Assembly (NCBI RefSeq): GCF_013409345.1
Contig: NZ_JACCBB010000001.1
Location: 4,154,001 to 4,218,000, forward strand
Reading direction: 5' to 3'
DNA length: 64,000 nt
From: Kineococcus aurantiacus
GTDB lineage: Bacteria > Actinomycetota > Actinomycetes > Actinomycetales > Kineococcaceae
Positions within the stretch are counted from its first letter, which is position 1, and every line of letters starts with the position of its first letter. Below, piece by piece: positions 21,311-55,208 of the stretch. The notes below the pieces were generated by a model. That model did not search any database, had not been told where the DNA came from, and saw only the letters and a program-made list of their open reading frames with translations. Position numbers and translations under genes: made by a program.

Positions 21311-22881
<1,571 letters not shown>

Positions 22882-22894
<13 letters not shown>

Positions 22895-23901
22895 TCGCCC
22901 GGGACACGCACGGCCCGGTCGGGTTCCCCGGCCGGGCCGTCGTGCGTCCGCCCCGGTCGCACCGGGCCCCCGACGGCGGAGAACCGGTCCGCCAGCGTCG
23001 CGAACGCGGCCCGCAGCGCTGCGGGGGAGGCCTGCTCGACCGGCGCGTCGAACCGCCCGACGGCGGCCGCCAGCGCGATCCACGACCAGGACCCCAGGGC
23101 GACCCGGCAGCGGTCCGCGTCGAGCGCCTCGACCGTCGCGTCGCCGGGGAGGGCGGCGACCTCCGCGGCGGGCCGGCGCAGCACGACCTGCCCCGAGCAC
23201 GGCCACGCGTCACGGACCGCGGACCCCTTGAACCGCGCCTCGAGGAAGGCGGCCGGGTCGTCACCGGGGAGCCGTCGTGGCGTGAACCGGGGACCGGTGG
23301 GCAGCTTCGGGGTGATGCGGTCGACCCGGAACGTGCGCCAGTCGTCGCGGTCGAGGTCCCAGGCCAGCAGGTACCAGCGGCCGCGGCGGTGCAGCAGGTG
23401 GTGCGGTTCGACCCGGCGCGGCTCCCCGCGCAGGTCCAGCCGCAGCAGGTCGCGCGCCTGCACGGCACGCCCGAGGGCCAGCAGCACCCCGGGGTCCGCC
23501 CCGGCGCCCGGGTCGTCGACGACGGTGGCCTCGGCGAGGACGTCGACGCGGTGCCGCAGGCGCGACGGCAGGACCTGCCGCACGGTGGTCAGCGCCCGGG
23601 CCGCCCCCTCGCCGGTCCCGGAGCCGGCCGCGGCGGCGGTCCGCAGCGCGAGGGTCAGCGCGACGGCCTGCTCGTCGTCGAACAGCAGGGGCGGCAGGTC
23701 CTCACCGGCGTCGAGGCGGTACCCGCCGTCGGGTCCCTTAGTGGCCCGCACCGGGTAGCCGAGGCCGCGCAGCCGTTCGACGTCGCGCCGCAGCGTCCGC
23801 GGGCTGACCTCCAGCCGGTCGGCCAGCACCGGGCCGGGCCAGTCGCGGCGTGCCTGCAGCAGCGACAGCAGCGACAGCAGACGTCCCGGGGTCCCGCTCA
23901 C
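22882..23901 (-). CDS. WYL-domain transcriptional regulator
   Basis: 339 residues: N-terminal winged HTH ([20 protein letters not shown], then [16 protein letters not shown]) and a WYL domain (about 145-225; [30 protein letters not shown]), plus a C-terminal WCX region. WYL proteins sense small ligands or nucleic acid fragments and often regulate neighbours. GTG start with CATGAT 6 nt upstream. Divergent from the VOC gene, which is a likely target. Its 3' end overlaps the sigA stop by 13 bp. Confidence 0.87.
22906..22947 (+). terminator. imperfect hairpin downstream of sigA
   Basis: A 13-bp stem (ACGCACG + GCCCGG paired with CCGGGC + CGTGCGT) with a 3-nt bulge on the right side, 12 bp after the sigA stop and inside the last codons of the facing WYL gene. 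Plausible sigA terminator, no T-tract. Confidence 0.4.
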
Positions 23902-24005
23902 GGTTCCATCATGGCCGCAGAAGAGGCCAGGACCTGACCGCCACCCCCGGCAGAGTTCCTCCTGACCCCGGGACAGACCCGGCGGCCGAACCGGAGGAGC
24001 CCACC

Positions 24006-24428
24006 GTGAGCACCGTCACCACCACCCACCTGAACTTCCGCGGCGAGGCCGGCGAGGCCCTGGCGTTCTACGGCGACGTCTTCGGCGCGGAGCCGACGCT
24101 CGTCACCTACGGGCAGGCGCACGACCCGCAGGGGGAACCGGGGCACGTCCTGTGGGGCGAGGTGCGCAGCCCGGGCGGCTTCCACGTCATGGCCTACGAC
24201 GTCCAGACCGACCGGGACTTCGACCCGGGCGTGCACGCGGTCTACGTCTCGCTGCGCTGCGGGAGCGCCGAGGAGGTCGAGGCGGCCTACACGGGGCTCG
24301 CCCGCGGGGCCCGGCACGTCCGGACCCCGCTGGGGCCGTCGCCGTTCTCCCCGCTGTACGGCATGCTCACCGACCGGTTCGGGGTGACCTGGGTGATCGA
24401 CCAGGCCGTGGCCTTCAGCGCAGGCTGA
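24006..24428 (+). CDS. VOC family protein (PhnB/glyoxalase-like)
   Basis: 140 residues of two vicinal-oxygen-chelate modules: LNFRGEAGEALAFYGDVFG and, near the end, LYGMLTDRFGVTWVID, as in PhnB-like proteins. Metal ligands are not obvious in all positions; activity unknown. Ribosome site GGAGG about 8 nt before GTG 24006. Divergent from the WYL gene. The last codons and the stop (from 24415) lie inside the DUF456-derived repeat, so the gene's present 3' end was formed or fixed by that junction. Confidence 0.82.
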   Translation: MSTVTTTHLNFRGEAGEALAFYGDVFGAEPTLVTYGQAHDPQGEPGHVLWGEVRSPGGFHVMAYDVQTDRDFDPGVHAVYVSLRCGSAEEVEAAYTGLARGARHVRTPLGPSPFSPLYGMLTDRFGVTWVIDQAVAFSAG

Positions 24429-24668
24429 GCGCCCCGACGGCCCAGACGATCGCGGCGAGCGTCCCGGCGCCCGCCTCGATCGCCACGCCGAGCCCGACGT
24501 TCTTCAGGGCCACGACGGTCGAGCGCTAGGCCGAGCGCGCCCGGTGCGGGCCCCGGCCGGTCCCGGCCAGCTCGCCGAGGAAGACGCCGAGCACGAAGCC
24601 CAGCGGCAGTCCCACGACGGGGACGGCGAAGAACCCCACGACGCCGAGGACCGCGCCGAGCAGGAGGG
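24415..24668. repeat. 254-bp direct repeat, left copy
   Basis: Matches 43156-43409 in the same orientation with 6 mismatches (about 97.6 percent identity, no gaps, constant offset of 18741). The sequence is the 3' half of the DUF456 gene. It begins at the position of the DUF456 stop codon and ends abruptly at 24668/24669, where sigA-derived sequence starts. Together the two copies bracket the polysaccharide gene cluster. Confidence 0.92.
24415..24668 (-). pseudogene. DUF456 gene fragment (3' part, nonsense mutated)
   Basis: On the minus strand this reads the second half of the DUF456 protein encoded intact at 43156-43650: [21 protein letters not shown] continuing to GTGRGP. A TGG codon of the intact gene is TAG here (about 24528), so translation would stop early, and the 5' half is missing. 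Several further substitutions. Not expected to make a functional protein. The short open frame crossing the junction (24526-24723) is an accident of the fusion. Confidence 0.88.
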
Positions 24669-24670
24669 GC

Positions 24671-24829
24671 AAGCGTCTTGGGCTGACCGACGGCCCGCCC
24701 AAGATGTTCGACGAGATCGGCATGGTCTATGGCGCGACCCGCGAGCGGATCCGCCAGATCGAGTCCAGGACGATGTTGAGGCGACGCCACCCGTCGCGCT
24801 CGCAAGTCCTGCGGGACTACCTGGACTGA
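24671..24829 (+). pseudogene. sigA 3'-end fragment (last 52 codons)
   Basis: Aligns without gaps to sigA 22736-22894, stop codon included, and homology stops within about 7 bp after the stop. I count 19 mismatches in 159 bp (about 88 percent). The frame is still open, but 11 of 52 residues differ, including changes in region 4.2 that are nearly invariant in real principal sigma factors (K to M, S to L, L to R). No start codon or promoter of its own. The DNA-recognition segment [10 protein letters not shown] is unchanged. Directly joined to the DUF456 fragment upstream. Confidence 0.9.
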
Positions 24830-24840
24830 CCGCCCGCAGC

Positions 24841-24882
24841 CCCGCACTACTCGGTCGGATCCTTCTGATCGAGTAGTGCGGG
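24841..24882. terminator. hairpin at the left edge of the island
   Basis: Perfect 13-bp stem (CCCGCACTACTCG / CGAGTAGTGCGGG) with a 16-nt loop, 11 bp after the sigA-fragment stop. It could be a terminator for either strand. Homology to the sigA downstream region has already ended here. Confidence 0.6.
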
Positions 24883-24897
24883 CTAGCTCGTTCAACC

Positions 24898-25290
24898 TCA
24901 GCTGGGACCCGTACCTGCTACTCGAGCCGGGGCGACGGCCACCAACGTCTCAGGTGCACATCGCGCGTCAGGACGGCGTGGGCTGCGACGATCGAGCGTT
25001 TGCCGATCGTCACCTCCCGAGGACCGCGGCCTTTGACCTCATCCAGAAGTGATCATCGCTGCAGCTCGTCTCGGACCCGGTGGCTTACGTCGTCCTGCAC
25101 GGTCACCCGTCCCCCGACCGCGACGTCGCGATCCACCGGTGGGACGACAGTCGCAGTGCATCGTCGGCGAAACCGCTGCCGAGCGCAGGATGTCCTCCCC
25201 GTGCACGCAGACGTGGATGTCCGTGTAGACCGACACGTCCTTCTCGACTTCGAAGCAACCCCCCGTCAGGACGACCAATGGCGATCGGGG
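24898..25290 (-). pseudogene. decayed hexapeptide-repeat acyltransferase (WbbJ/DapH type)
   Basis: No intact frame, but pieces of one protein appear in order on the minus strand in different frames. From the 5' side: EKDVSVYTDIHVCVHGEDIL, then GGRVTVQDDVSHRVRD, then VTIGKRSIVAAHAVLTRDV (25013-24957), then PETLVAVAPARVAGTGPS and stop at 24898. The last two are the classic C-terminal coils and tail of left-handed beta-helix O-acetyltransferases. At least three frameshifts or small indels separate them. The N-terminal part above about 25290 is not recognisable. Such enzymes decorate surface polysaccharides, which fits the island, so this is probably a dead island gene. Confidence 0.62.
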
Positions 25291-25473
25291 TAAGCCGGCT
25301 GTCACCCTCGGGCAGGCTCTAGGTCGAACTGACCGCGGACTGGACCACCCCACGGGCCGCGGTCAGTCCGCCGCCGCAGTCAAGCCACACACGTGCACAC
25401 GGCATCACCCTCCGCAACAGCCCACGCGCCCTGCCACCGAGAATGCAAGTGGTGGAGCGGGGGACGGGGAACG
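25291..25473. other. noncoding stretch downstream of wzt
   Basis: Apart from the hairpin listed separately, no gene was found. Open frames here are short and have no supported start or family resemblance. Together with the pseudogene zone, about 640 bp (24830-25473) carries no intact gene, which is unusual in this dense window. Confidence 0.5.
25328..25367 (-). terminator. hairpin downstream of the wzm-wzt operon
   Basis: Perfect 11-bp inverted repeat (ACTGACCGCGG / CCGCGGTCAGT) with an 18-nt loop, about 107 bp past the wzt stop on the minus strand. Probable terminator of the exporter operon. Confidence 0.5.
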
Positions 25474-26676
25474 TCACGCTCCGACGTCTCGGGGGCGCAG
25501 AGTCACGGGCAGTTCCAGGGCCACCACCCGCGCCGGCCGCCCCTGGTCGCTGCCGTGGACGGTGAACGGGACGAGGGAAGGTTCGTCGAGCATGTCGCTG
25601 TACGGGGTGCCCAGCCACAACCCCAAGGTGTGCTCACCCACGTTCAGCACCGGCGGAATCAGCATCCTCAGCCGGTACCGGCCCGGCAGCCGCCGGGCGA
25701 CCTGGTCACGATCCAAGGCCTCATCGAGCAGGCGCACCCCGGATGCCGTGGTCACGATGACCGCCGCGTCCAGGTCGCGCACCTCCTCCGACAGTGTCAG
25801 GTCCACTTCGACCGTGGTGCTGGTGTCCCGCAGCACCGGGTCCCCGGCAACCCCGCCCTCCGGAGTCAGTCGCACGGCCTCCACCCGCACCGGACCGCGC
25901 TCGAGCAGTCCCGTTCCACCCTCGGCGCTCGCCAGCCCTGAGGCGAGGTACCGGCGCACGATCTGTCGGGTGGGACCCTCCTCGCGCACCTGCCCGGCAT
26001 CCAGCCACAACGACCGCTCGCACAACCGGCTGAGCGCTTCCAGGTCGTGGCTGACGAACACCACGGTGCGGCCCTCGGCCTCGGCCTCGGCCATCCGGCC
26101 CAGGCAGCGGCGCTGGAACTCCGCATCCCCGACGGCCAGGATCTCGTCGACGACGAGGATGTCCGGTTCGAGGTGCGCGGCGACTGCGAAGGCCAGGCGT
26201 AAGTACATGCCGCTGGAGTAGCGCTTGACCGGGGTGTCCAGGAAGCGCTCCACCCCGGCGAACTCCACGATGGAGTCGAACCGCCGGATGATGTCGCGCC
26301 GGCCCATCCCCAGGATCGCCCCGTTGAGCAGGACGTTCTCGCGTCCGCTGAGTTCGGGGTGGAAGCCGGTGCCGACCTCCAGCAGGGCTGCCACCCGTCC
26401 GCGCGTGCGGGAGACCCCCAGGGTGGGGGAGGTGATGCGGGCCAGGATCTTCAAGATCGTGCTCTTGCCGGCCCCGTTGCGACCCACGATTCCCAAGGAC
26501 TGGCCGCTGGACAGCTCGAAGTCGACGTCCCGCAGCGACCACAGCTCCCGCGTGGTGGGGGCGGGCACTCCGCGCAAGCGGCCTGCGGCGGCCGAGATCG
26601 CCTCCCGAGCCGTCGTCCCACTGCGCCCCAGCACGTACCGCTTGCTGACTCCGCGGAACTCGACGCGGTCGGCCAT
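25474..26676 (-). CDS. wzt: polysaccharide/teichoic acid ABC exporter, ATPase subunit
   Basis: 400 residues. NBD of the ABC-2 O-antigen/teichoic acid export family: Walker A GRNGAGKST (about 67), long A-loop region, signature YSSGM (about 165) in the usual degenerate form of Wzt/TagH, Walker B ILVVDEILAVGD, and switch FVSHDLE. After about residue 250 there is a C-terminal beta-sandwich-like domain of about 130 residues, as in Wzt proteins that recognise the modified chain end. Exports a lipid-linked glycan made in the cytoplasm. Its ATG shares one base with the wzm stop (TGATG), so the pair is coupled. Confidence 0.9.
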   Translation of the reverse strand: MADRVEFRGVSKRYVLGRSGTTAREAISAAAGRLRGVPAPTTRELWSLRDVDFELSSGQSLGIVGRNGAGKSTILKILARITSPTLGVSRTRGRVAALLEVGTGFHPELSGRENVLLNGAILGMGRRDIIRRFDSIVEFAGVERFLDTPVKRYSSGMYLRLAFAVAAHLEPDILVVDEILAVGDAEFQRRCLGRMAEAEAEGRTVVFVSHDLEALSRLCERSLWLDAGQVREEGPTRQIVRRYLASGLASAEGGTGLLERGPVRVEAVRLTPEGGVAGDPVLRDTSTTVEVDLTLSEEVRDLDAAVIVTTASGVRLLDEALDRDQVARRLPGRYRLRMLIPPVLNVGEHTLGLWLGTPYSDMLDEPSLVPFTVHGSDQGRPARVVALELPVTLRPRDVGA

Positions 26677-27512
26677 CAGACCACATCCGCGAAGGATCGC
26701 TCGGCGCGCTGGAAGTACCAGCTGCCGCTGAGGAAGAGCGCCAGGGCGACCGGGACGGAGACGGCCAGCTGCCAGCCCGGCCAGGGGGTCCCCAGCAAGG
26801 ACCAGCGGCCGAGCTCGACGACCCCTGCCACGGGGTTGACCACGTAGACCCAACGGACTCCCTCGGGCAGGGAGCCCGAGGAGTACGCCACCGGGCTGGC
26901 GAAGAGCCACAGCTGCATGACCGGGCCCAGGGCGTGCTTGACGTCGCGGTAGCGCACGTTGAGGGCCGACAGCCACAGGCACACCCCCAGGGCCGTCACC
27001 ACCAGCAGCAGCAGCCACGCCGGCAGCGCCAGCAGGTTCCACGTCGGGGGTTGCCGGTACACGACGGCCAACACTGCGAGCAGTGCCAGGCCAACGCCGA
27101 GGTCGACCAGCGGGGGCAGCAAGGCGGACGCGGGAGCCGCGAGCCGGGGGAAGTGCACCTTCGTGATGAGCGAGGCGTTGTCGACGAGGACGAGGCTGCC
27201 CTGGCTGACGACGGCGGCGAAGTACGTCCAGGTGACGAGACCAGCCATCGCGAAGACGGGGTAGGGGATGCCATCGGTCGCGGTGCGGGCGACGTGGTGG
27301 AAGACGAGCGTGAAGACGAGCACGGCGGCCGCGGGTTGCGCTGCAGCCCACACGACTCCCAGGACGGCCTGCTTGTAGCGCACCCGCAGGTCGCGCAACG
27401 CGAAGAAGCCGATGAGTTCGCGCGCCGACCAGAGCTCCCGCAGCGGGCGGAACGAGCGCTTGAGGTCCGGCGAGTTCTCCGTCCACTCGACACCGGGGGC
27501 TGCAGTGGGCAC
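26676..27512 (-). CDS. wzm: polysaccharide ABC exporter, permease subunit
   Basis: 278 residues, ABC-2 type permease with six hydrophobic segments. Family motifs: ELIGFFALRDLRVRYKQAVLGVVWA at the cytoplasmic N-terminus, LVTWTYFAAVVSQGSLVLVDNASLITKVHFPR, and YSSGSLPEGVRWVYVVNPVAGVVELGRW near the end. Partner of the adjacent Wzt; together they carry lipid-linked polysaccharide (O-antigen, teichoic acid or galactan type) across the membrane. First gene of the minus-strand pair. Confidence 0.9.
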   Translation of the reverse strand: MPTAAPGVEWTENSPDLKRSFRPLRELWSARELIGFFALRDLRVRYKQAVLGVVWAAAQPAAAVLVFTLVFHHVARTATDGIPYPVFAMAGLVTWTYFAAVVSQGSLVLVDNASLITKVHFPRLAAPASALLPPLVDLGVGLALLAVLAVVYRQPPTWNLLALPAWLLLLVVTALGVCLWLSALNVRYRDVKHALGPVMQLWLFASPVAYSSGSLPEGVRWVYVVNPVAGVVELGRWSLLGTPWPGWQLAVSVPVALALFLSGSWYFQRAERSFADVV

Positions 27513-27609: not shown

Positions 27610-28878
27610 ATGCGCCGTGCCTGCCTGGTCACCATCCTGGTCCTCGTGGGCCTGATCTCGAGCGTCCCGGCGGCCGCCGCCACCGCAGCCGCCCCAGTGG
27701 CCGCCTCCAGCGCGACCCCGACGACCGGCACGGCTGCACGCACGCTCTCGCCGTTGACCTTCGGTGCCCGCGGTGACGGTGTCACCGACGACACGGCGGC
27801 CCTGCAGCACGCCCTCGACGCCCTGCGGGCCGGAGACACGCTCGCGCTGCCGGCCGGGCGCACCTTCCGCCACACCGATGTCCTGCGCATCGGCGTGGCC
27901 GGGGTGCGAGTGACCGGTCCGGGCGTGCTGCTGGCCACCGCGGAGTCCCGCTCGGCCGTCCTCGTGGCCGCCGACCGGGTCGTCCTGGACGGGGGGCTGG
28001 TCCTGCGCGCAGGCCCCACCACTCGGCGCTGGGACGCCTTTGAGCAGATGAAGCTGCGCATCGCCGCCAACGGGGTCGTCGTGCGCCGGGTCACCGTGGA
28101 GGGCGCCGCCGCTGCTGGCGTCTACGTCGGCACCGGCGCCCACGACTTCCTCCTGGAGGACGTCGTGGTCCGCGGCACCCGTGCCGACGGCATCCACATC
28201 ACCGGTGGAGCTCACGACGGCGTCGTGCGCCGGCCCGTCGTGCAGCGCAGCGGGGACGACGGCGTGGCGGTCGTGTCCTACCAGGGCGACGGCGTCCCGG
28301 TGCGCCGGGTGCTGGTGGACTCCCCCAACGTCTCCGACACCACCTGGGGGCGAGGGGTGACCGTGGTGGGCGGCGAGGACATCACCTACCGCGACGTCAC
28401 CGTCCGCCGTTCCAACGCCGCCGCCGTCTACATCGCCTCCGAAGGGGCTCCCTACTTCACGTTCGCCCCGCGCCGGGTGACCGTGGAGGGAGCCTTGCTG
28501 GAAGGCGCGAACATCAACGCATCGGTCGGCCACGGCGCCGTCCTGGTGTACGCGGGGCGTCCCAACCACTCGCCGTCCCAGATCTCCCTGTCCTCGGTCA
28601 CCGTCCGCAGCACCCGCACCACGGCCCCTTGGCAGGTCGGGGTCGTCGGCGAGCGGGGGAGCTCGGTGCAGGACCTCCGTTTCGCCCGGTTCGACGTCCA
28701 CGGAGCCCCCGCGCCCTTCAGCAGCAACCTCGGGACGGCCGCGTGCTCGCTCGTCGGCTGGACGGTCAACGGCAGCGCGGTCGCCGACACGCTGTCGGCC
28801 ACCACCCCGGCCGTGCCCGCTGCCGCGACCGTCCGGGGCGGCAGTCGCACCCTGCGCAGCGCCCCTCTCACGCGCTGA
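27610..28878 (+). CDS. secreted right-handed beta-helix protein (pectate lyase/GH28-like)
   Basis: 422 residues. Signal peptide MRRACLVTILVLVGLISSVPAAAA, cleavage likely after AAA near residue 25. The mature part starts with FGARGDGVTDDTAALQHALDAL, the GH28/pectate-lyase_3 entry motif, followed by repeated beta-helix rungs (residues about 130-370; e.g. VVVRRVTVEGAAAAGVYVG). Likely binds or cuts the glycan made by this cluster, at the cell surface; catalytic residues cannot be named safely. ATG 27610 chosen because it gives a clean signal peptide; the longer frame from 27562 does not. Ends in an 11-bp overlap with the facing glycosyltransferase gene. Confidence 0.75.
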   Translation: MRRACLVTILVLVGLISSVPAAAATAAAPVAASSATPTTGTAARTLSPLTFGARGDGVTDDTAALQHALDALRAGDTLALPAGRTFRHTDVLRIGVAGVRVTGPGVLLATAESRSAVLVAADRVVLDGGLVLRAGPTTRRWDAFEQMKLRIAANGVVVRRVTVEGAAAAGVYVGTGAHDFLLEDVVVRGTRADGIHITGGAHDGVVRRPVVQRSGDDGVAVVSYQGDGVPVRRVLVDSPNVSDTTWGRGVTVVGGEDITYRDVTVRRSNAAAVYIASEGAPYFTFAPRRVTVEGALLEGANINASVGHGAVLVYAGRPNHSPSQISLSSVTVRSTRTTAPWQVGVVGERGSSVQDLRFARFDVHGAPAPFSSNLGTAACSLVGWTVNGSAVADTLSATTPAVPAAATVRGGSRTLRSAPLTR

Positions 28879-29958: not shown

Positions 29959-30657
29959 GTGCTGAAGCAGGAGTTGCGTCGTGCCAAGTCAGCCCTGGGC
30001 CGCCGTTCGGTCGCCCGGTCCGCGCTCGCCCGGCGGGTGACCCTGCTGCTGCGCTCGGTGGACCTGCGGCGCGCCGACCCGCTCAGCGAGTGGGGGTTCG
30101 AGCGCGGGACGCCCGTCGACCGCTTCTACATCGAACGGTTCCTCCAGGAACAACGGGAGCACGTCCACGGCCGCGTCCTGGAGGTCAAGGAGGACCAGTA
30201 CGCGACCGCGTCGGGAGCCTCGGCCGTGGACGTCCTGGACATCGACCCCGCCAACCCGCTGGCCACGGTCGTCGGAGACCTCTGCGACGAGGTGACCTTG
30301 GCCGCGGGCACCTACGACGCAGCAGTGGTGACCCAGACGCTGCAGTACGTCCCCGACCCGCGCGCCGCCCTGCGCAACCTGTTGGTGGCCCTGCGGCCGC
30401 AGGGCCGGCTGCTCGTCACCGTCCCCTGCTTGAGCCGGCTGGCCGGGGAGGGCGACCGCTGGCGCTGGACGGCGCGGGGGTTCAGCGACCTGGTCGCGGC
30501 GGCGGGCGGGGCCGGGGACGTCCGGGCCGTCGGCAACGGCGCGGCCGCGCGGGCTTTCTTGCTGGGGGCCGCGGCCGAGGAGCTGCCGCGCGCGACGCTG
30601 CTGACCGACGACCCCGAGGTGCCGCTGCTGGTCACCGCGGTCCTGCACCGCGCCTGA
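29959..30657 (+). CDS. class I SAM-dependent methyltransferase-like protein
   Basis: 232 residues. Methyltransf_11-like order: GRVLEVKEDQYA (motif I, normally VLEIGxG; glycines are missing here), DVLDIDPANPLA (motif II), VTQTLQYVPDPRAALRNLLVALRPQGRLLVTVP (motifs IV-V, the most typical part), and a C-terminal strand-rich end. This is the shape of methyltransferase-like proteins in glycan clusters that often follow WbsX/FkbM types. The altered motif I leaves SAM binding uncertain. Possible target: a sugar or the end of the polysaccharide. Confidence 0.7.
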   Translation: MLKQELRRAKSALGRRSVARSALARRVTLLLRSVDLRRADPLSEWGFERGTPVDRFYIERFLQEQREHVHGRVLEVKEDQYATASGASAVDVLDIDPANPLATVVGDLCDEVTLAAGTYDAAVVTQTLQYVPDPRAALRNLLVALRPQGRLLVTVPCLSRLAGEGDRWRWTARGFSDLVAAAGGAGDVRAVGNGAAARAFLLGAAAEELPRATLLTDDPEVPLLVTAVLHRA

Positions 30658-30679: not shown

Positions 30680-31555
30680 TCACTGCCAGCGCTGCGTGCT
30701 CCCCGGCAGGACGCGGCCGAGGAGCCCCTCCACGCGGCCGACCGAGCGGGCGATGGCCAGCCGCAGCGACAGTCGCAGGTCGGGGTCGTGCGAGGCCGGG
30801 TGCAGCCAGGGCCCGGCCACCGTCCGCCAGCGCACCAGCGAAGAGTAGGGGTGCGAGCGGTAGACGTGCCCCGTTCCCCGGGCGTAGGCGCGGTGCTTGC
30901 GCACCAGGGCGTCGGGGGCCAGGGAGCGACGCTCTCCGGGGCCGTCCACCTCCAGGTCCGGCCGGCTCAGAACGCGCCCGCCCGCCGACATCAGGCGCAG
31001 CAGCAGGTCCGTGCCTTCCCCGGACTGCCAGGGCGTGGGGGCCCCCGTGCCGAGGTCGGCCCGGAACCCGCCGACGGCGTCGAAGGCCGCGGCCCGGATG
31101 AACATGGACGGTTCGATCGCCCGCCAGACCGACCGGTCGTCCAGGGCCGTGCCCGCGGGGGGCAGCTGGAAGCGGGGGGTGCCCTGCTCCACCAGGGTGC
31201 ACGCCACGGCGACCACGTCAGGTGCTCGGAACGCCGCAGCCACGGCCCCCAGGGTGCCGGCGGGCAGGCTGCTGTCGTCATTGGGGAAGCCCAGGACCTC
31301 GGCGCGCCCGAGCAGCGCGCGGACGGCGTCGTTGCGCCCCGCCGAGGCACCGCCCTCGCTGGGCACCACGCGCAGCTCGTACGGCGGGTCGACCGGACCA
31401 GTCGGCAGCTTCGTCCCGGGCGGTGACTGGTCGGCCACCGCGACGGCCACCGGGGGCACGAGCGACTCCGCCGCCGACCGCAGCAACCCGGCCAGCGCCG
31501 GGCGGCCGATGGTGGTGATCGCCAGGCCGACGGTCGGCAGTTCCGCGCCGCTCAC
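30680..31555 (-). CDS. glycosyltransferase family 2
   Basis: 291 residues, GT-A fold. VGLAITTIGRPALAGLL at the N-terminus, GGASAGRNDAVRAL (N in the nucleotide-binding loop), and GFPNDDSSLPAGTL, where NDD replaces the usual DDD/DxD metal-binding motif. Middle part EPSMFIRAAAFDAVGGFRADLGTG is typical of rhamnosyl/galactofuranosyl-like GT2 enzymes. GTG start overlaps the stop of the flippase gene (GTGA), so it is translated after it. Confidence 0.82.
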   Translation of the reverse strand: MSGAELPTVGLAITTIGRPALAGLLRSAAESLVPPVAVAVADQSPPGTKLPTGPVDPPYELRVVPSEGGASAGRNDAVRALLGRAEVLGFPNDDSSLPAGTLGAVAAAFRAPDVVAVACTLVEQGTPRFQLPPAGTALDDRSVWRAIEPSMFIRAAAFDAVGGFRADLGTGAPTPWQSGEGTDLLLRLMSAGGRVLSRPDLEVDGPGERRSLAPDALVRKHRAYARGTGHVYRSHPYSSLVRWRTVAGPWLHPASHDPDLRLSLRLAIARSVGRVEGLLGRVLPGSTQRWQ

Positions 31556-32715
31556 GTGGCCCTGCGCAGCAGTACGACGTAGGTCACGGCCAGCAGCACC
31601 TCGGCGGCGGCCAGACCGGCCACTGCACCGTCGAGCCCATCCACCAGACCCCCCACGACCAGCATCGACAGTGCGAGCCCCGCAGCGATCACGTCCAGCA
31701 CGCCGATGCGGTGTGCCGACAGCAGCGGGATGAGGAGCATAGCTCCGATGGAACTGACGGCCAGGGCTGCGCGCTGCGTGGTCATCAGGGGCAGGATCTC
31801 CAGGACGAGGGGGGTGACCGGTCCCAGGAAGACGCGGAGGAGCCCCTCGGGCGCGAGGGCCAGCACCAGCCCGTTGAGCCCGGCGACCGCGGCACCGAGC
31901 GCCGCCCCGCGCGAGTACGCGCGGCGGGGGGCGCTGCTGCCCTGCGTGAGCAGGGTCTGAGAGGCCACTCCGATGAGAAGGTTCGTGCCGCCGAACGCCA
32001 GTTCCCCTGCGCGGTAGACGCTCGTGGCGGTGTAGCCCGCTGTCGCCGAGAGCACGACCGGGATGCTCTGCACGAGGGCGACCCCGGCGCTCACCCCGAC
32101 GACGTAGGGCCACCAGGAGCCGCGGCGGGGGCCCCACCACTCCCGGGCGCCGGACCAGGACAGTTTTCGGTCACGCATCAGCAGCAACCCCGTGAGGGCG
32201 ACGAGCAGCAGCGCGGCGAACGGGGCGAGCACCACCCAACGGCTCGGCAACCAGGGAGCCGCGGCGGCCACCAGGACGGCCTGGCCGGCGTACGCCACTG
32301 CCAGGTGCACCCCCGCCGGACGGGCCCCGTCGAGGAAGACACGTCGCCAGTAGGAGCTTTCCACCAGCATGACGGCTGGTAAGCCCAGGGCCGCACCCGT
32401 GAGGGCGAGCTGCGTCAGCCCGCTGGTGATCGAGGCCGCTGCCGCAACCACCACCGCCAGCAGCAGCGTGGCCAACAGGGCCGCGGACTGCGCCAGTGGG
32501 GCGGCGCGTCGGCGCCCGTCCTCGTCGGTCAGCGCTGCCATCGGCTTGCCGATCATGGCAGGTGCCAGCGCAGCAGGGGCCGAGCACACGGCGGTCGCGA
32601 GGGCGAGCGCTCCCAGTTCCGACGCGCTGCACCGGTTGGCGGCGACAGCGAAGACACCTACGGAGACGAGGCGTGAGGTGGCTTGAGGGAGGAGAACCCA
32701 CGCGCCAGCGCGCAC
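31552..32715 (-). CDS. Wzx-like polysaccharide flippase (MOP superfamily)
   Basis: About 387 residues with roughly 12 hydrophobic segments. Sequence is weakly conserved; the N-terminal WVLLPQATSRLVSVGVFAVAANRCSASELGALALATAV pattern, together with its position among glycosyltransferases, marks it as an O-antigen/teichoic acid flippase-like protein. It would move the lipid-linked repeat unit to the outer leaflet. GTG 32715 is preferred because GGGGAGGA is correctly spaced 7 nt upstream; GTG 32721 is too close and the 32805 start has no ribosome site. Confidence 0.75.
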   Translation of the reverse strand: MRAGAWVLLPQATSRLVSVGVFAVAANRCSASELGALALATAVCSAPAALAPAMIGKPMAALTDEDGRRRAAPLAQSAALLATLLLAVVVAAAASITSGLTQLALTGAALGLPAVMLVESSYWRRVFLDGARPAGVHLAVAYAGQAVLVAAAAPWLPSRWVVLAPFAALLLVALTGLLLMRDRKLSWSGAREWWGPRRGSWWPYVVGVSAGVALVQSIPVVLSATAGYTATSVYRAGELAFGGTNLLIGVASQTLLTQGSSAPRRAYSRGAALGAAVAGLNGLVLALAPEGLLRVFLGPVTPLVLEILPLMTTQRAALAVSSIGAMLLIPLLSAHRIGVLDVIAAGLALSMLVVGGLVDGLDGAVAGLAAAEVLLAVTYVVLLRRAT

Positions 32716-32896
32716 ACGCACTCCTCCCCGTTGGCACGGTCGGACGATTAGAACCAGGATGATCGCAGACCAGTATGGCGGTGTGCATGCATTGTGCGCG
32801 TCCACGACTTCCGGTCATGGACGGCGACCGGACCGCCTACGCTGGTGAGTGCTGTCGCCGGTTCCGCCGGCCGGATCGACACCCGAAGGGACCACG

Positions 32897-33664
32897 GTGA
32901 CGCAGACACCTCCGGAGGCGGGGCTCGACGGGCAGCGAGGGGCGACCGGGGTGGGTACTCCTCGGCGGGGGCCGGCGCGCTGGGCACTCCCCGTTCTCGT
33001 GCTGGCCGTCCTCGGCGCCCTCGTCGGTGTCGTCGTGGGCGCTGTGCGTGTCCCAAACCCGCAAGCCGTGGCTCGAGTCCTTCTAGCATCCGACCCGACC
33101 CTGCCGGGGGAGCAGGAGGCCGCCGCCGAACCCGACCGCTTCATCCAGACGCAACTGCTGCTCATCGCTAGCCCGGACGTCCTGACCGCTGTGCGCGACC
33201 GCGTCGGGGACGACACCGTCCACGACCTCGGCGCGACCCAGGTCGGGGTCACCGACGTCATCGAGGTCAGCGCGTCCGCGCCGACGGCGGCAACCGCCCG
33301 CGATGCGGTGACCGCGGCCCTGGCCGTCTACGACGAGCGCCGCGCGGCCGAACTCACGGTCCGCGCAGACGCGATCTCCGGCGTCCTGGACGACCAGCTG
33401 GCCGCCCTCGCCGCGGCCTCCGGCGGCACCGACCCGGCTGGGACGGAAGCCAGCAGGCTGCTGGCCGAGCGCAACGAGCTGGCGCTGGCTGCGGATTCGG
33501 CGACCGTCGGTTCCACCGTGGTGCAGGCCCCGGTGGTGGTCGAGACCAGCCGGTGGGGTGGGGCCGCACGCGCCGGGGTCACCGGCTTGGTGCTCGGCGC
33601 GCTGCTGGGACTCCTGTTCGCGCTCGCGCGGGCCCGGTCCGGCGGTGCGGCACGCGAGGGGTGA
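32897..33664 (+). CDS. Wzz/YveK-like chain-length or copolymerase protein
   Basis: 255 residues with two membrane segments (about 30-52: LPVLVLAVLGALVGVVVGAV; about 230-248: AGVTGLVLGALLGLLFALA) and a roughly 180-residue outside domain rich in Ala and coiled-coil-like helices (QTQLLLIASPDVLTAVRDRVG; ADAISGVLDDQLAALAAASGG). This is the layout of Wzz/polysaccharide copolymerase proteins without the kinase domain. Start GTG 32897 gives a Pro/Arg cytoplasmic leader; TACGCT at about 32839 is a possible -10. Overlaps the Wzy-like gene by 4 bp. Confidence 0.75.
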   Translation: MTQTPPEAGLDGQRGATGVGTPRRGPARWALPVLVLAVLGALVGVVVGAVRVPNPQAVARVLLASDPTLPGEQEAAAEPDRFIQTQLLLIASPDVLTAVRDRVGDDTVHDLGATQVGVTDVIEVSASAPTAATARDAVTAALAVYDERRAAELTVRADAISGVLDDQLAALAAASGGTDPAGTEASRLLAERNELALAADSATVGSTVVQAPVVVETSRWGGAARAGVTGLVLGALLGLLFALARARSGGAAREG

Positions 33665-34974
33665 GCGCCGCGGACGGGCGGGCGGGCGTGTGGTGGCTCT
33701 CCCCGGCGGGCGCGGTCCTCTTGGTCGTACCGGCCACGCTGGTTCTCGCCGTCTTCTTCGACGACGCGTACTTCCGGCAGAGCTGGGGCACGCCGAAGGT
33801 GCTGACGCCGGCGACGGCGTGGCTGTTCGCCCTGGGGGCGGCACTGTTCTGCCTCGGGGCGCTGTGGCCGCTCCTGCGAAGCCCGGCCTCCGCAGCTGGC
33901 GGCTGGCCACAGCTCACCGCAGCGCAGCGGTCCCGGCTCCGCCGCGCCGCGACGGTCGTGTTCCGGCTGACGGTGGTGGGGTATCTGGCCATGGCGGCGG
34001 CCGGGGTGGCACGAGGGGCCCGGCCGGCTCAGCTGCTGACGGTGCTGACCGACCAGGACGCCTTCGACTCGACCCTGCGGTTGCAGTTCGCCCCCGTCAC
34101 GGGGGTGACGACGTTGACCCAGCTCGGCATCGCCTACGTCGTCCTGGCTGCTGTTCTGCTGTCCAGCGGCCGTGACCGGGGCTTGGAGCTCCGGTTGGCC
34201 CTGGTCCTCTTCCTGGCGCTGCTGCGCACCTACTTCCTCACCGAGCGGCTGGCCGTCCTCGAACTGCTCATCCCGCTGGTCGCCGTGGCTGCCCTGGCGA
34301 TCTCGTACCGGGCCGGACGGATTCCAGCGCGACTGGTCCAGTTGGCCCCCTTCCTGCTGGTCCCGGCGGTCGTGGCCGTCTTCAGCGCCTTCGAGTACTC
34401 CCGCAGCTGGGTGTTCTACTCCCAGCACCGCGGCGGGTCGTTCGTGCAGTTCGCCTTGGACCGGCTGGCTGGTTACTACGGCACGGCCTACAACAACGGG
34501 CAGCTGGCCCTGCTGCATGACGAGGGCGGGAGCGTCCCCTACGGCAGCATCGAAGGCTTCTGGACGGCGCCGGGGATCGCTCAGCTGCACCTGTACACCC
34601 TGCTGACCGGACGCTCCGAACCCGACGACTTCTCCACCCTGCTGCAGCAGTACGGAAACCCGGAGTTCAACAGCCCGGGCGGGGTCGCGATCCCCTTCCT
34701 GGACTACGGGACCGTCGGGGGTCTGGCCTTCTTCCTGGTGGTGGGCAGCCTGCTGGGCCTGGCCTACCGTGCCTGCTGCGACGGACACCTCCTGGCCGTC
34801 CTGCTGTACCCCGTGCTCGCGACGGGGTTGTTCGAGATGCCGCGGTACCTGTACTGGGGTCAGGGTCGCGTCCTGCCGACGCTCCTGGCGCTGCTCCTGA
34901 CCTGGTGGTACGTCAGCCGGGCCCGGCCGCCCCGTCCCACGTCCCCGCGACCGACCCTGAGGAGCACGACGTGA
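33661..34974 (+). CDS. Wzy-like oligosaccharide repeat-unit polymerase
   Basis: 437 residues with about 11 hydrophobic segments and one large outside loop (about 245-370, YSRSWVFYSQHRGGSFVQFALDRL to YGNPEFNSPGGVAIPFLDYG). That loop between late membrane helices, and a sequence otherwise poorly conserved, is characteristic of O-antigen polymerases (the LALLRTYFLTERLAVLELLIPLVAVAAL segment matches the R-containing helix seen in the family). It joins flipped repeat units at the outer face. GTGA overlaps on both sides (Wzz-like gene before, glycosyltransferase after). Confidence 0.76.
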   Translation: MSAADGRAGVWWLSPAGAVLLVVPATLVLAVFFDDAYFRQSWGTPKVLTPATAWLFALGAALFCLGALWPLLRSPASAAGGWPQLTAAQRSRLRRAATVVFRLTVVGYLAMAAAGVARGARPAQLLTVLTDQDAFDSTLRLQFAPVTGVTTLTQLGIAYVVLAAVLLSSGRDRGLELRLALVLFLALLRTYFLTERLAVLELLIPLVAVAALAISYRAGRIPARLVQLAPFLLVPAVVAVFSAFEYSRSWVFYSQHRGGSFVQFALDRLAGYYGTAYNNGQLALLHDEGGSVPYGSIEGFWTAPGIAQLHLYTLLTGRSEPDDFSTLLQQYGNPEFNSPGGVAIPFLDYGTVGGLAFFLVVGSLLGLAYRACCDGHLLAVLLYPVLATGLFEMPRYLYWGQGRVLPTLLALLLTWWYVSRARPPRPTSPRPTLRSTT

Positions 34975-36068
34975 ACCGCCCGCTGACCTGGTTGATGCTC
35001 GCGACCCACGTCCCGGCGTCCGGTGCGGGCGGCGGCATCGTGCGGTACACGGTCGGGCTGGCGCGTGCGCTGGACGCCCGGCCCGACGTCGAGGTGTCGG
35101 TGCTGGCCGAACCGGCGGCGCGGCCCTTCTTCACCGACCTCCTGGGCGATCCGCGGCGGGTGCACGTCGTGCCCGCGGCTCCCACGCCGGTGCGGTCGCT
35201 GGCCGAGCGGGCCGGGGTGTTGCCGGCCTTCCACCGCGACGTCGACGTCGTGCACGGCACCAAGCACCTGCTGCCGCGCTGGGGCCGCGGCCGGCGGGTG
35301 CTGACCGTCCACGACATGCTGCCCCTGGACCGGCCGCACGAGTTCGGCACGCTGAAGCGGCGCCTCCTGACCGGTCCGTACCTGGCTTCGGTGCGCCAGG
35401 CCGAGACCGTCGTCTGCGTCAGCGCGGCCACCCGGGAACGGCTGGTGCACCACGTCCCCTCGGTCGCGGACCGGACCGCCGTCGTCCCGCTGGCGGCCTC
35501 ACCGGCACTGCTGTCGGCCGACCCCGTCCCGGTCCCCGCCCTGGTGGGTCGGGAGTTCGCGGTGGTCGTCGGGGACCCGTCGCCGCGCAAGAACCTGGGT
35601 TTCCTCGTCGACCTGTGGCCCGAGGTGGTCCGCCGGCGGCCCGGTGCGGTCCTGGCGGTGGTGGGGCCGCCCAGCTGGGGCCCCACCCGGACGGGGCAGG
35701 AGCACAGTCGGCTGGTCGCCCGTGGGGACCTGGCGGCGCTGGGGTTCCTCTCCGACGCCGAGCTGCGCTGGTGCTACGAGAACGCCACCGTCGTCCTGTG
35801 CCCCAGCCTGGCCGAGGGGTTCGGGTTGCCCGCCGCTGAGGCGCTCGCGCTGGGGGCGCCACTGATCACCTCCGAGGACCCCGCGCTGCGGGAGGTCGCC
35901 GGGCCGGGGGCGGTCCACGTGCCCGGGACCGACGCCGCGGGGTGGGCGGAGGCCGTGGTCACCGCCTTCGCCGCCCCCCGGGTACCGCGACGCGCACCCG
36001 AGCGGGTGCGCAGCTGGGACGACGTGGCTTTGGAGACCCTGCGGACCGTCGTGCCGACTGCCCGCTGA
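34971..36068 (+). CDS. glycosyltransferase family 4/1
   Basis: 365 residues, GT-B. GAGGGIVRYTVGLARAL (acceptor loop), LTVHDMLPLDRP, VVVGDPSPRKNLGFLV (donor domain start) and CPSLAEGFGLPAAEALALGAPLI with the E-x7-E motif. Resembles mannosyl- or rhamnosyltransferases of the WbpY/MtfB group. GTG overlaps the Wzy-like stop codon; last gene of a three-gene coupled run. Its stop is 16 bp from that of the facing fusion gene. Confidence 0.85.
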   Translation: MNRPLTWLMLATHVPASGAGGGIVRYTVGLARALDARPDVEVSVLAEPAARPFFTDLLGDPRRVHVVPAAPTPVRSLAERAGVLPAFHRDVDVVHGTKHLLPRWGRGRRVLTVHDMLPLDRPHEFGTLKRRLLTGPYLASVRQAETVVCVSAATRERLVHHVPSVADRTAVVPLAASPALLSADPVPVPALVGREFAVVVGDPSPRKNLGFLVDLWPEVVRRRPGAVLAVVGPPSWGPTRTGQEHSRLVARGDLAALGFLSDAELRWCYENATVVLCPSLAEGFGLPAAEALALGAPLITSEDPALREVAGPGAVHVPGTDAAGWAEAVVTAFAAPRVPRRAPERVRSWDDVALETLRTVVPTAR

Positions 36069-36084: not shown

Positions 36085-38388
36085 TCAGGTCCCGGTGCTC
36101 CCGGCGGGCGGGCCGGTGTCCTCGGTCGGCAGACCCAAGTGCCGGCGGGCGACGCGCTGCACGGCAGCGCGCGCGACCTCCGGGCGGTAGCGCTGCTCGT
36201 GCAAGCGCTGCGCGGCCTCGGCCAGCCGGGTGCCCAGCCCTTCCTCCTGCAGGACGCGACGGCAGGCTTCGGCCATCTCCCCGGGCGTGTTCCCGTGCAG
36301 CAGGTGCACCCCGTCCAGCGCGTCGAGCCCCTCGCTGCCCAGGCGCGTGCTCACCACGGGGACCCCGTGGGCGAACGCCTCGAGGACCTTGACGCGGGTC
36401 CCTCCCCCGTAGCGGACGGGGACGAGCGCCACGTCGGCCCCGGCCAGTTCCGCGTCGATGTCCTCGACGTCCCCGACGACCTCCACCCCCGGCAGCCCGT
36501 TCAGGTCGGCCAGCAGGTCCACACCGCCCCGGCCCACCAGCCGCAGCCGGGTGCCGGGCACGAGCTCGCGCACCAGGGGCAGGACGCGGGTGGCGGCGTG
36601 CACGGCCGCGTCCACGTTCGGGGGGTAGTGGTACGTGCCGACGACGAGCAGGACGGGCCGCTCGGGGAGCGGCCGGGCTGGTCGCGGCTGCGCGGGTGGG
36701 GGGTAGGAGTTGGGCACCACCTCGGTGCGGGGCCCGGCGACGCGGGTCCTGTCGAGGTCGCTGCAGACGACCACGGTGTCGGCGATCCGCCGGACGCGCT
36801 CCTCCACGGCGGCCCACAGCGGCCGCTCGACGCGACGCTGCCAGCGCACGGCCCGGCGGGTGGTGGGGGAGTCCGCGGGCAGCGCCAGGAACGAGCGCAG
36901 CTTGGCGGTCTCCACGTCGTCCATGTCGACGACGGTGCGGCACCCGCGCAGGGTCCGGCCCAGGCTGACCGCGTGGTCGGAGTAGCCGAACCACACCAGG
37001 TCGTAGCGCTGGTCGCGCAGCGGTCGCAGGGCGCGTCGAGCCACGCCCCAGCGCACGACGGCGATCTGCCACGGAACCACCCGCACCGCGGAGGCGAGCA
37101 TCCCCGGCAGCCGGCGCCGCGGCCCGGCGTCGACCTGGAGCACCGTGGCGACGCGCACCCCGGGCGGCAGCGGTCGCGGCACGGGGGGCCCGGCGAACAG
37201 GACGGCGACGTCGAGGTCGACGCCGGGCAGGTCCGCCAGGGCCCGCAGCGTCGTGGAGCAACGCAGGCGCTTGCCGCCGTCAGCGGGCCAGGGTCGGTCG
37301 GGCAGGGTGAGCAGGACCCTGGGCCGCCGCGGGGCGGGTGCGGCGGCCGGTGGCTCAGGAGCGGTTGTGCGCGGCAGCCTCACGTCGCCGGGACCGATCC
37401 AGGTGCGGGTGTCGCGGTGCGACTGCACGCGGCCGACGAGCCCGGGGGCGACGCCGGCCAGGCCCGCGATCGCCCGGGACCGGACCGGTTGCCCGGTGTC
37501 GGTGAGCACCCGCCAAGCGGCCGCGCGCGTCGCGGGGCCCTGGGTGGCGAGCCGGGACTTCAGCCGGTACCGGGCGGCCTGCCGGTCCTGCTCGCGAGCA
37601 GTGCCCTCGGCCGTGACCCGCTCCGCCGCGGTGAGAGGGAGCTCGTGCAGCCGCCGACGCAGAAACGTTGCGATCGACGAGGCCATGGCACCGCGGTCCG
37701 AGCTCAAGCTGCCCTCGTGCAGGTGGTAGCGGGCCAGTGGCTCAGGGACCAGGCCGAGCCGGGCACCGGCGAAGGCCATCCGGATCCAGCAGTCCCAGTC
37801 GGTGGCGTGCCGGACGGCCGGGTCGAAGCCGCCGACGGCCAGGAAAGCCTCCCGGCGCACCACCACGTGCCCGAAGACGAAGTTGCGCTCCAGCAGCTTC
37901 CGCCGCTGGTCCTCCCACGCGAAGGGGTAGTGCGGTCCGTACCAGCGGCCCAGCACGCGGCCGTCGTGAACGAGCTGGGCGTCGGTGGTGACCAGGTCCA
38001 GCTCGGGTCGTCTCGTCAGCAGGTCCCGCACGGCCTGCAGCCGGCCGGGCAGCCACTCGTCGTCGGCGTCCAGGACGGCCACCCACGGGGAGGTCGCGGT
38101 GCGGACCGCGGTGTTCTTGGCCGCGGCCTCGCCCTGGTTGGTCCGGTGCCGCACGAGCCGCACGGCCGGGCCGAAGGAAGCGGCCACCGTCGCGCTGGCG
38201 TCCTTGGAGCCGTCGTCGCAGACGACCACCTCCGCGGGCGGCGGGTCTTGGGCCAAAGCCGATCGGATCGCCCGGGCCAGGTGTTGTTCCGCGTCGTGGC
38301 AGGCGATGACGACTGAGATCGCGAGAGGGTCTTGGCCCGCGGTGGCCGGTGCGGCCGCCCCGTCGTTAGTGTGGGCGGTCTTCGACAC
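36085..38388 (-). CDS. two-domain glycosyltransferase: GT2 fused to GT4
   Basis: 767 residues. Residues about 20-330 are a GT-A family 2 domain: ISVVIACHDAEQHLARAI, EVVVCDDGSKDASATV, VAVLDADDEWLPGR (DxD) and ATDWDCWIRMAFAG. Residues about 370-750 are a GT-B domain with VLLVVGTYHYPPNVDAA and VPVRYGGGTRVKVLEAFAHGVPVVSTRLGSEGLD. A roughly 45-residue Pro/Ala linker (TTAPEPPAAAPAPRRPR) joins them. Two sequential transfers in one chain are likely. GTG start; TAGGAT ends 6 nt before it. The GT2 half resembles the separate GT2 at 39395. Confidence 0.88.
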   Translation of the reverse strand: MSKTAHTNDGAAAPATAGQDPLAISVVIACHDAEQHLARAIRSALAQDPPPAEVVVCDDGSKDASATVAASFGPAVRLVRHRTNQGEAAAKNTAVRTATSPWVAVLDADDEWLPGRLQAVRDLLTRRPELDLVTTDAQLVHDGRVLGRWYGPHYPFAWEDQRRKLLERNFVFGHVVVRREAFLAVGGFDPAVRHATDWDCWIRMAFAGARLGLVPEPLARYHLHEGSLSSDRGAMASSIATFLRRRLHELPLTAAERVTAEGTAREQDRQAARYRLKSRLATQGPATRAAAWRVLTDTGQPVRSRAIAGLAGVAPGLVGRVQSHRDTRTWIGPGDVRLPRTTAPEPPAAAPAPRRPRVLLTLPDRPWPADGGKRLRCSTTLRALADLPGVDLDVAVLFAGPPVPRPLPPGVRVATVLQVDAGPRRRLPGMLASAVRVVPWQIAVVRWGVARRALRPLRDQRYDLVWFGYSDHAVSLGRTLRGCRTVVDMDDVETAKLRSFLALPADSPTTRRAVRWQRRVERPLWAAVEERVRRIADTVVVCSDLDRTRVAGPRTEVVPNSYPPPAQPRPARPLPERPVLLVVGTYHYPPNVDAAVHAATRVLPLVRELVPGTRLRLVGRGGVDLLADLNGLPGVEVVGDVEDIDAELAGADVALVPVRYGGGTRVKVLEAFAHGVPVVSTRLGSEGLDALDGVHLLHGNTPGEMAEACRRVLQEEGLGTRLAEAAQRLHEQRYRPEVARAAVQRVARRHLGLPTEDTGPPAGSTGT

Positions 38389-38426: not shown

Positions 38427-39398
38427 GTGACGCCGAGCTTGCCGGGCCTGTCCGCTGTGCTCGCACGGCGGCCGCGCTGGCCCCAGCGGTTCCGCGCGCG
38501 GGGCGCCAACGTCGTGGTGCTCTACCACCGCATCGCCGACGACCCGCAAGACGCGGCCGGCATGACGGTCCCTCCTGAGCTGTTCGCGCGGCAGGTCGCC
38601 GCGCTGGCGGAGCGCTTCGACATCGTCCCGGCGGCGCAGGTGCACCGGGTGGGCCCGCGGCCCGCTGCCGCGATCACCTTCGACGACGGGTACGCCGACA
38701 ACGACGAGGTCGCGCTGCCGCTGCTGCGGCGCCTGGGGCTGCCGGCCACGCTTTTCGTGGTCAGCGGTGTACTGGACGACCCTCAGGAGTTCTGGTGGGA
38801 TCGGCTCGAGCATCTGGTCCTGGAGCGCCTGCCGGCGCACGGGGTGCGGGTGGTGGTGGGGCGCCGCCCGTTCGCGCTGCCGTTGTCGGGCGGGTCGGAG
38901 CGCACCCGGTCCCTGCAGCGGCTGAGCACTGCGCTGATGACGCGGCACCGCTCGGAGATCGAGCGGGTGCTGGCCGAGCTGGAGCGTCGGGCCGGTCCTC
39001 CCGATCCTGGTCCCTGCCGCCGGCACGCGAGGGTGCCGGCTCACCGGCTCGCCGCGCTCGCAGCGGAGCCCCTCCTGGAGATCGGCTCGCACACCTGCAC
39101 CCACGCCGCGCTGGGTCGGCTGTCGCGGGCGGCCAGCGGCCGGGAGCTGCGGGACAGCCGCGAGCGGTTGCACGAGGTCCTGGGGCACCGGCCCCGGCTG
39201 CTGGCCTACCCCTTCGGAGCGCCCGGCACGGTGCGCCGGCGTGAAGCGGCCGAGGCTCGCCGGGCCGGGTACGAGCGGGCGTTCGTCAACGTCACGGGGC
39301 CGGCGGAGGGGGCTGACCCGTTCGCTGTGCCGCGGGTGAGCGTGGGCCGCTGGGAACCGCAGCAGTTCCTCGCGGCGCTGACCAGGTGGTCGCGGTGA
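38427..39398 (+). CDS. polysaccharide deacetylase (NodB family)
   Basis: 323 residues. NodB motifs: VVLYHRIADDPQD at the N-terminus, AITFDDGYADN (motif 1: catalytic and metal Asp) and IGSHTCTHAAL (motif 2: metal-binding His pair), then RLLAYPFGAPG (motif 3). Removes N-acetyl groups from an aminosugar polymer or precursor. No signal peptide, so it may act inside the cell on a lipid-linked intermediate, though that is inference. GTG start; the gene overlaps the following GT2 by 4 bp. Confidence 0.85.
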   Translation: MTPSLPGLSAVLARRPRWPQRFRARGANVVVLYHRIADDPQDAAGMTVPPELFARQVAALAERFDIVPAAQVHRVGPRPAAAITFDDGYADNDEVALPLLRRLGLPATLFVVSGVLDDPQEFWWDRLEHLVLERLPAHGVRVVVGRRPFALPLSGGSERTRSLQRLSTALMTRHRSEIERVLAELERRAGPPDPGPCRRHARVPAHRLAALAAEPLLEIGSHTCTHAALGRLSRAASGRELRDSRERLHEVLGHRPRLLAYPFGAPGTVRRREAAEARRAGYERAFVNVTGPAEGADPFAVPRVSVGRWEPQQFLAALTRWSR

Positions 39399-43149: not shown

Positions 43150-43155
43150 GCGCGC

Positions 43156-55054: not shown

Positions 55055-55057
55055 CCC

Positions 55058-55175: not shown

Positions 55176-55208
55176 CGGGCTCCGGATCGCGGCACCCGCC
55201 GAGAACCC

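Follow-up and report, generated by a model that had tools for sequence, protein, structure and literature searches.

In pneumococci, the variable capsule genes of the cps locus are exchanged between fixed flanks. The cps island of Neisseria meningitidis carries an intact galE1, a truncated galE2, and Regions D and D′; in galE2 the initial 402 nt are missing, and the authors proposed that the island entered a resident galE by illegitimate recombination (PMC5349592, in excerpt). In binary-capsulated pneumococci and merodiploids, transformation generates tandem duplications of about 100-900 kb through alternative repeat pairing, and one that was followed proved unstable (PMC3784515, in excerpt). 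In homology-facilitated illegitimate recombination, linear DNA is integrated through one homologous and one illegitimate end (PMC3240628, in excerpt).

The window analyzed here is a stretch of 64,000 nucleotides of the Kineococcus aurantiacus genome (NZ_JACCBB010000001.1, positions 4,154,001 to 4,218,000). Between sigA and DUF456 it holds a glycan cluster of about 18 kb, comprising a Wzt/Wzm transporter, five glycosyltransferase genes, a methyltransferase, a beta-helix protein, a deacetylase, four genes without a Pfam match and a priming transferase (Table 1). As in the meningococcal island, in the account excerpted above, the cluster is bounded by an intact and a truncated copy of a housekeeping gene, and DUF456′ keeps the 3′ part of its gene as galE2 does; by analogy, the galE1/galE2 island would be a close precedent. 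According to the same account, D and D′ are inverted repeats that allow inversion of the cassette, whereas the Kineococcus copies are direct repeats, and the genes involved are unrelated. New here are a second stump, sigA′, which comes from the opposite flank, and the locus itself. The part of the pneumococcal literature cited above describes two polysaccharide-locus alleles kept together after DNA uptake; the arrangement in Kineococcus is similar in that respect, but consists of a small, decayed scar with a non-homologous joint. In contrast to pneumococcal cps, the flanks are sigA and DUF456-parE, the host is an actinomycete, and the cluster in the window is of the ABC-transporter (Wzm/Wzt) type. 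A literature search found no description of a polysaccharide exchange locus in Kineococcus, and the present analysis names one in this genus.

Table 1. Features of the sigA-DUF456 locus, from left to right (coordinates are those of the window)
Coordinates	Strand	Feature	Basis
21311..22894	+	Complete sigA (primary sigma factor), conserved flank on the left	ORF; present in all 12 genomes
22882..23901	-	WYL-domain regulator with HTH_11	Pfam PF13280, PF08279; of the loci inspected, shared with just G001 and G005
24006..24428	+	VOC/glyoxalase-family protein, stop overlaps DUF456 3′ end	Pfam PF00903
24415..24668	-	DUF456′, 3′ half	98% to 43156-43409; six substitutions, one stop
24669..24669		Putative illegitimate joint, single base	Sequence and alignment
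24670..24829	+	sigA′, last 52 codons, apparently decayed	141/160 nt identical to intact gene
24841..24882	+	Perfect 13-bp inverted repeat (24841-24853/24870-24882), candidate terminator just past sigA′	Read by eye
24837..25473		Spacer between sigA′ and island (637 bp)	Short weak matches only to relatives' spacers
25474..26676	-	Wzt-type ABC ATPase	Pfam ABC_tran (on longer frame)
26676..27512	-	Wzm-type ABC-2 permease	Pfam PF01061; 66.5% aa in G007
27610..28878	+	Pectate-lyase-like right-handed beta helix protein	Pfam PF12708
28868..29935	-	Family 4 glycosyltransferase	Pfam; 56% aa in G007
29959..30657	+	Methyltransferase	Pfam PF13489
30680..34974		Four predicted genes lacking any Pfam match: 30680-31555 (-), 31552-32556 (-), 32999-33664 (+), 33661-34974 (+)	Codon-usage gene calls
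34905..36068	+	Family 4 glycosyltransferase	Pfam; 66% aa in G007
36085..38388	-	GT2-GT4 double glycosyltransferase	Pfam
38427..39398	+	Polysaccharide deacetylase	Pfam PF01522
39386..40384	+	Family 2 glycosyltransferase	Pfam PF00535; 52% aa in G007
40409..41521	+	Family 4 glycosyltransferase	77% aa to G007, 56% to G005
41707..43149	+	Priming sugar transferase (Bac_transf), locus marker	Pfam PF02397
42995..43170		Right-hand transition: G007-like leftward, G005-like (own clade) rightward	Site affinity counts
43156..43650	-	Intact DUF456, right conserved flank	Pfam PF04306
43690..43926	-	DUF7455 gene	Pfam PF24254
44141..46240	+	Gene that we take to be parE, conserved beyond the locus	ORF; conserved in relatives

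The left edge of the island reads as an illegitimate joint. A repeat finder returned two direct repeats within the window: 24415-24668 matches 43156-43409 over 254 nt at 98% identity, and 24670-24836 matches 22735-22901 over 167 nt at 88% identity, the latter extending 7 nt beyond the sigA stop codon. The first-pass annotation had taken the first fragment for the 3′ half of DUF456, which the 98% copy bears out, and had described the last 52 codons of sigA as joined to it directly; the 88% copy does span 52 codons, but it starts at 24670, and one base, 24669, intervenes. Apart from this extra base no shared run crosses the joint in the sequence and alignment, and just 6 of the first 10 nt of sigA′ match intact sigA. 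The 3′ ends of VOC and DUF456 overlap in the window in the same way as in G001, so VOC-DUF456′ is a native adjacency and the break lies at 24668/24670, in the middle of DUF456. DUF456′ contains one in-frame TAG, and it and intact DUF456 form direct repeats 18,741 bp apart. A fused reading frame across the joint was ruled out, since DUF456′ is antisense and sigA′ is sense.

When the fragments were searched against the whole genome (5,027,298 bases, 2 contigs), the only strong matches besides the query itself were the two parent loci (E 1.9e-121 and 8.1e-53; next best, E 1.2e-5). This was the BLASTN-type check that the first-pass annotation had proposed, and it ruled out a better match at another genomic locus. 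Chance was likewise ruled out as a source of the fragments, with log10 P of about -130 and -58 in a simple binomial calculation. The joint, whose presence in distant relatives lacking an island would have spoken against the first-pass reading, is absent from all 10 of the other genus genomes searched (G011 lay outside that search), and among the genomes searched with a DUF456 profile a second copy was found only in this one, leaving aside a palindromic contig end of G007. At that contig end (L069:12166-12353) the DUF456 3′ end occurs on both strands, and this looks like an assembly artefact.

The variable, island-like gene content could by itself suggest an ordinary genomic island borne by an integrase or transposase, or an error of assembly, both of which we consider highly improbable. 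No tRNA lies within 18000-48000, and no integrase or transposase family was found among the scanned proteins, four island genes being without a Pfam match; in this the earlier statement that neither enzyme is needed agrees with the data. The repeats are gene fragments, not att sites, and the copies bear private differences in a genome assembled into two contigs, which argues against misassembly.

We compared the interval in 12 genomes, 11 of the genus (including this one, G000) and one other of the family; a part of the genes in these intervals, not every one, was scanned for families. No gene lies between sigA and DUF456 in G003, G004 and G009, and WYL-VOC alone is found in G001. In G007 a glycan cluster directly follows sigA and reaches DUF456, and in G005 WYL-VOC is followed by a glycan island that differs from that of the window. 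Other content was found in G008 (one 151-aa gene without a Pfam match), G011 (one 523-aa gene, also without a match) and G006 (genes for a sugar transporter and an aldehyde dehydrogenase, plus a third gene outside the family scan), while G002 and G010 have glycan genes beyond sigA and beside DUF456 on different contigs, with breaks between them. Glycan genes with both flanks reached are thus found in G000, G005 and G007. In an rpoB tree (all nine inner branches starred) this genome pairs with G005, its nearest relative in the sample, followed by G001 and G003, and G007 lies far off with G006. G003 is without WYL-VOC though it belongs to the same rpoB clade, which implies either loss of the two genes from that genome or more than one gain of them.

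The first-pass annotation had predicted relatives with an island directly between sigA and DUF456, with WYL-VOC only, and with a bare spacer, and these are exemplified by G007, by G001, and by G003, G004 and G009, respectively. Fixed flanks with differing glycan content were found in the 12-genome comparison, and its proposal that sigA-DUF456 is an exchangeable surface-glycan locus holds up, judged by gene content. The interval from sigA to DUF456/parE offers a practical coordinate pair for typing glycan variation across these actinomycetes.

The two stumps differ in how far they have decayed. Over 160 sites, sigA′ departs from the intact gene at 19, of which 16 are private; 13 of the private changes fall in codons with an altered amino acid, and 11 residues are changed. 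We read these private, amino-acid-changing substitutions as decay. At sites 10-115 that vary with respect to 10 relatives (4-8 sites per relative), sigA′ always has the base of its own genome and never that of the relative, and therefore that copy did not come from a distant island source. In the last 40 nt, three synonymous changes are also seen in relatives. When 19 random changes were simulated, three or more relative-type changes in the last 40 nt occurred with P = 0.0016 and anywhere with P = 0.09, the choice of region being post hoc. This is no more than suggestive of an own-type sigA that received its final bases together with the island, since at one of the three sites intact sigA itself may have changed. 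A second sigA-like gene in G010 (L047:9-962), 79% identical in amino acids to the window sigA over residues 211-527, was excluded from the site comparison; its last 160 nt match the sigA of its own genome at 152 sites.

DUF456′ differs from intact DUF456 at six of 254 sites, three of which were judged to be derived in the stump. With counts set by hand from the alignments and the first 10 nt of sigA′ left out, derived sites number 12/150 in sigA′ and 3/254 in DUF456′ (Fisher p = 0.0007), and unpolarized differences 15/150 and 6/254 (p = 0.0017); private changes are about seven times denser in sigA′. By crude rates, sigA′ would be about half as old as the split from G005 (about 0.3 at 4-fold sites), and DUF456′ far younger. 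A single event does not fit such unequal decay unless DUF456′ was converted later. If both stumps date from one event, the sequence of DUF456′ was later overwritten, the template being either intact DUF456, at a distance of 18.7 kb, or conspecific DNA. Over its first 112 nt DUF456′ shows no difference from the intact copy (chance 0.03), which is compatible with a conversion tract but no proof of one. An own-type, decayed sigA′ beside a nearly unchanged DUF456′ makes it possible to separate the order of events from the homogenization of repeats.

These results bear directly on one of two mechanisms that the first-pass annotation offered, Campbell-like integration of a circle, taken here in its plain form as a single crossover in DUF456 by which a foreign circle carrying a foreign sigA′, the island and DUF456 was inserted. 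Such a crossover yields exactly the gene order observed, the allele types it predicts exist, and a direct repeat of the crossover gene is found around the insert in the form of DUF456′ and DUF456. One-step insertion of a foreign circle is nonetheless not borne out: the own-type sigA′ weakens it, and the two stumps have decayed unequally. In addition, of the 77 plasmid records with a match, not one spans 80% of 22700-25500, and contig 2 of this genome gave no match; among the best 10 of the 77 records, the top ones are WYL-VOC matches. We regard this mechanism, in its plain form, as very unlikely.

The right edge differs in kind from the left. Along the priming transferase and on into DUF456, sites at which this genome agrees with just one of G005 and G007 divide 88/154 (G005/G007) to the left of 42995 and 40/23 to its right, a switch in affinity with Fisher p = 0.00016; the cut was picked after the table was seen, which makes this p-value too favorable. 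Either the last part of the priming transferase gene, at its 3′ end, or DUF456 holds the point of change. It looks like a homologous switch of the kind left by a crossover between flanking homologies.

Both the right-edge switch and the own-type DUF456 on either side of the island are accounted for if an end-joining tandem duplication came first, as in the other mechanism of the first-pass annotation. This would have given sigA-WYL-VOC-DUF456′/sigA′-WYL-VOC-DUF456, in which the island then replaced the second WYL-VOC through crossovers in sigA′ and at DUF456, and an own-type sigA′ with relative-type bases in its last 40 nt would be explained as well. The scheme requires a crossover within a 160-nt sigA′ that was already decaying, leaves the unequal decay unexplained too, and has no intermediate to show for it, no close second VOC 3′ end being seen in 11 genus genomes. 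We hold it to be unlikely.

The island itself appears to come from a distant lineage of the genus. It is collinear with that of G007, with Wzt, Wzm, three family 4 and one family 2 glycosyltransferases and the priming transferase in the same order at 52-79% amino acid identity. Island gene models are codon-usage gene calls, which supersede earlier query frames; some queries were antisense (i3, i5, i8, i9, i11) or too long (i1, i6, i7), and their matches are taken as collinear DNA only. At least three of the four Pfam-less gene regions (30680..34974) match DNA at the equivalent place in the G007 island, in part through antisense frames. Wzt is 68% identical in amino acids to its G007 counterpart, and the best match in each other genome is at most 52%. 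For the priming transferase, relatives at or above 70% were found only in G007, G005 and G002 among the 12 genomes, all others being at most 51%; those at or above 70% are enclosed by the flanks, except that of G002, which shares a contig with sigA.

Between this genome and G005, the priming transferase differs at 0.62 of 4-fold sites, and sigA, parE, VOC, DUF456 and WYL at 0.26-0.40; to the distant G007, the priming transferase differs at 0.53. This contrast favors transfer between lineages. In trees, the protein places the priming transferase of G000 with that of G007 (support 66/36), the DNA weakly favors G000 with G005 (77/32), and an AU test does not reject the latter clade (p = 0.113). 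Topology is not decisive, and the case for a horizontal origin therefore rests on the divergence contrast together with the right-edge switch. G007 was not the direct donor, since the 637-bp spacer has no counterpart there, and the exact donor lies outside the sampled genomes. Against the spacers of six relatives, 24837-25473 gave a best E of 7e-4 (G010) and a 27-bp match in G005; its GC is below that of the left flank, and G007 has an acyltransferase gene between sigA and Wzt. The 27-bp match is in reverse orientation, to a hexapeptide transferase gene beside VOC in G005 (E 0.002), and hints at a decayed gene.

Taken together, these observations are probably best explained if DUF456′ and sigA′ together are a scar that marks where two alternative alleles of the locus were fused in tandem, one side by homology and the other by end-joining, with homogenization of DUF456′ afterwards. 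The alleles would be sigA-WYL-VOC-DUF456, as in G001, and sigA-glycan island-DUF456, as in G007, both from the same or a very close lineage; the island, of distant origin, would already have been coupled to a sigA of own type when the fusion took place. WYL-VOC is shared by G005 and G001 of the same rpoB clade, and is therefore probably the resident content. Incoming DNA, linear or circular, consisting of the end of sigA, the island and DUF456, would have entered a cell with the WYL-VOC allele, by uptake or conjugation from a strain of the same or a close lineage that already had the island allele. Its right end would have recombined homologously around the boundary between the priming transferase and DUF456, and its left end, inside sigA, would have been linked illegitimately to a point midway along the resident DUF456. 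What remained would be the resident DUF456 as the left stump, 52 codons of the incoming sigA as the other, and both genes in a single intact copy; sigA′ would since have decayed freely, and DUF456′ was probably re-homogenized by conversion with intact DUF456. Of 11 genus genomes, 7 have a Ku gene and 9 a competence gene of the ComEC type, this genome being among them in both cases, so that end-joining and DNA uptake would be possible.

The pattern resembles homology-facilitated illegitimate recombination, with one homologous end at 42995-43170 (the post-hoc cut) and an end joined without extended homology at DUF456′/sigA′. In the source excerpted above that process is known from laboratory crosses, whereas here it would be read from a natural scar in which part of a resident gene has been duplicated. 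The same map can result from a linear fragment with one homologous end, from tandem duplication and exchange, or from Campbell insertion of a conspecific circle. Counting against a fusion of two alleles are the unequal decay of the stumps, unless DUF456′ was converted later, the lack of WYL-VOC in G003, a donor outside the sample, the AU p-value of 0.113 and a spacer unlike that of G007. If the fusion is right, the scar shows how a glycan cluster may be acquired next to the gene for the primary sigma factor, apparently with no help from an enzyme of a mobile element.

G005, which likewise carries WYL-VOC and an island, raises the question of when such a fusion took place. The roughly 100 bp after its VOC gene resemble the DUF456 5′ end in the right orientation, a tentative remnant. 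In local alignment with G001 DUF456, no other of the 5318 pieces lying outside DUF456 scored as high as this stretch (49, against 46 for the runner-up), and its score was reached by none of 1000 shuffles with the G001 and G003 queries and by 19-67 of 1000 with five others. With two clade profiles nhmmer gave E 0.18-0.23, bettered by opposite-strand matches elsewhere in G005 (E 0.001-0.003), and neither a G001-only profile (E up to 20) nor an all-genus profile (E below 1) picked up the stretch. For a sigA′ remnant after the G005 VOC, no score rose above shuffles and no profile match had E below 1. If the remnant is true, both genomes with WYL-VOC and an island carry a DUF456 stump between them.

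One reading of this is that the fusion predates the split from G005, that sigA′ and all but a little of the left DUF456 then disappeared from G005, and that the islands were swapped later. A spacing of 6-7 nt before the DUF456 stop, common to G000 and G005 and not found in G007, agrees with a shared ancestor in the same way as the putative remnant does; the weakness of that remnant by nhmmer and the different content of the two islands speak against it, and we think it quite unlikely. A further proposal, which we put forward tentatively and hold to be less likely than not, is that sigA-DUF456 is a stacking site where alleles are added in tandem instead of being swapped, and the left DUF456 stump is held close to identity with the intact gene by repeated conversion, as a homology arm for later exchange of glycan clusters; G005 would then be a second, separately decayed product.

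Among the top five of 77 matching records, WYL and VOC DNA (23045-24408) occurs together on large replicons of Nonomuraea, Embleya and Streptomyces at about 68-72% identity, and in two of these five records the WYL/VOC neighbors are annotated. The pair itself may be a travelling regulator-enzyme module. Elsewhere in the window, 55066-55147 consists of two adjoining 41-nt copies that are 93% alike, within an inverted-repeat region at 55048-55185.
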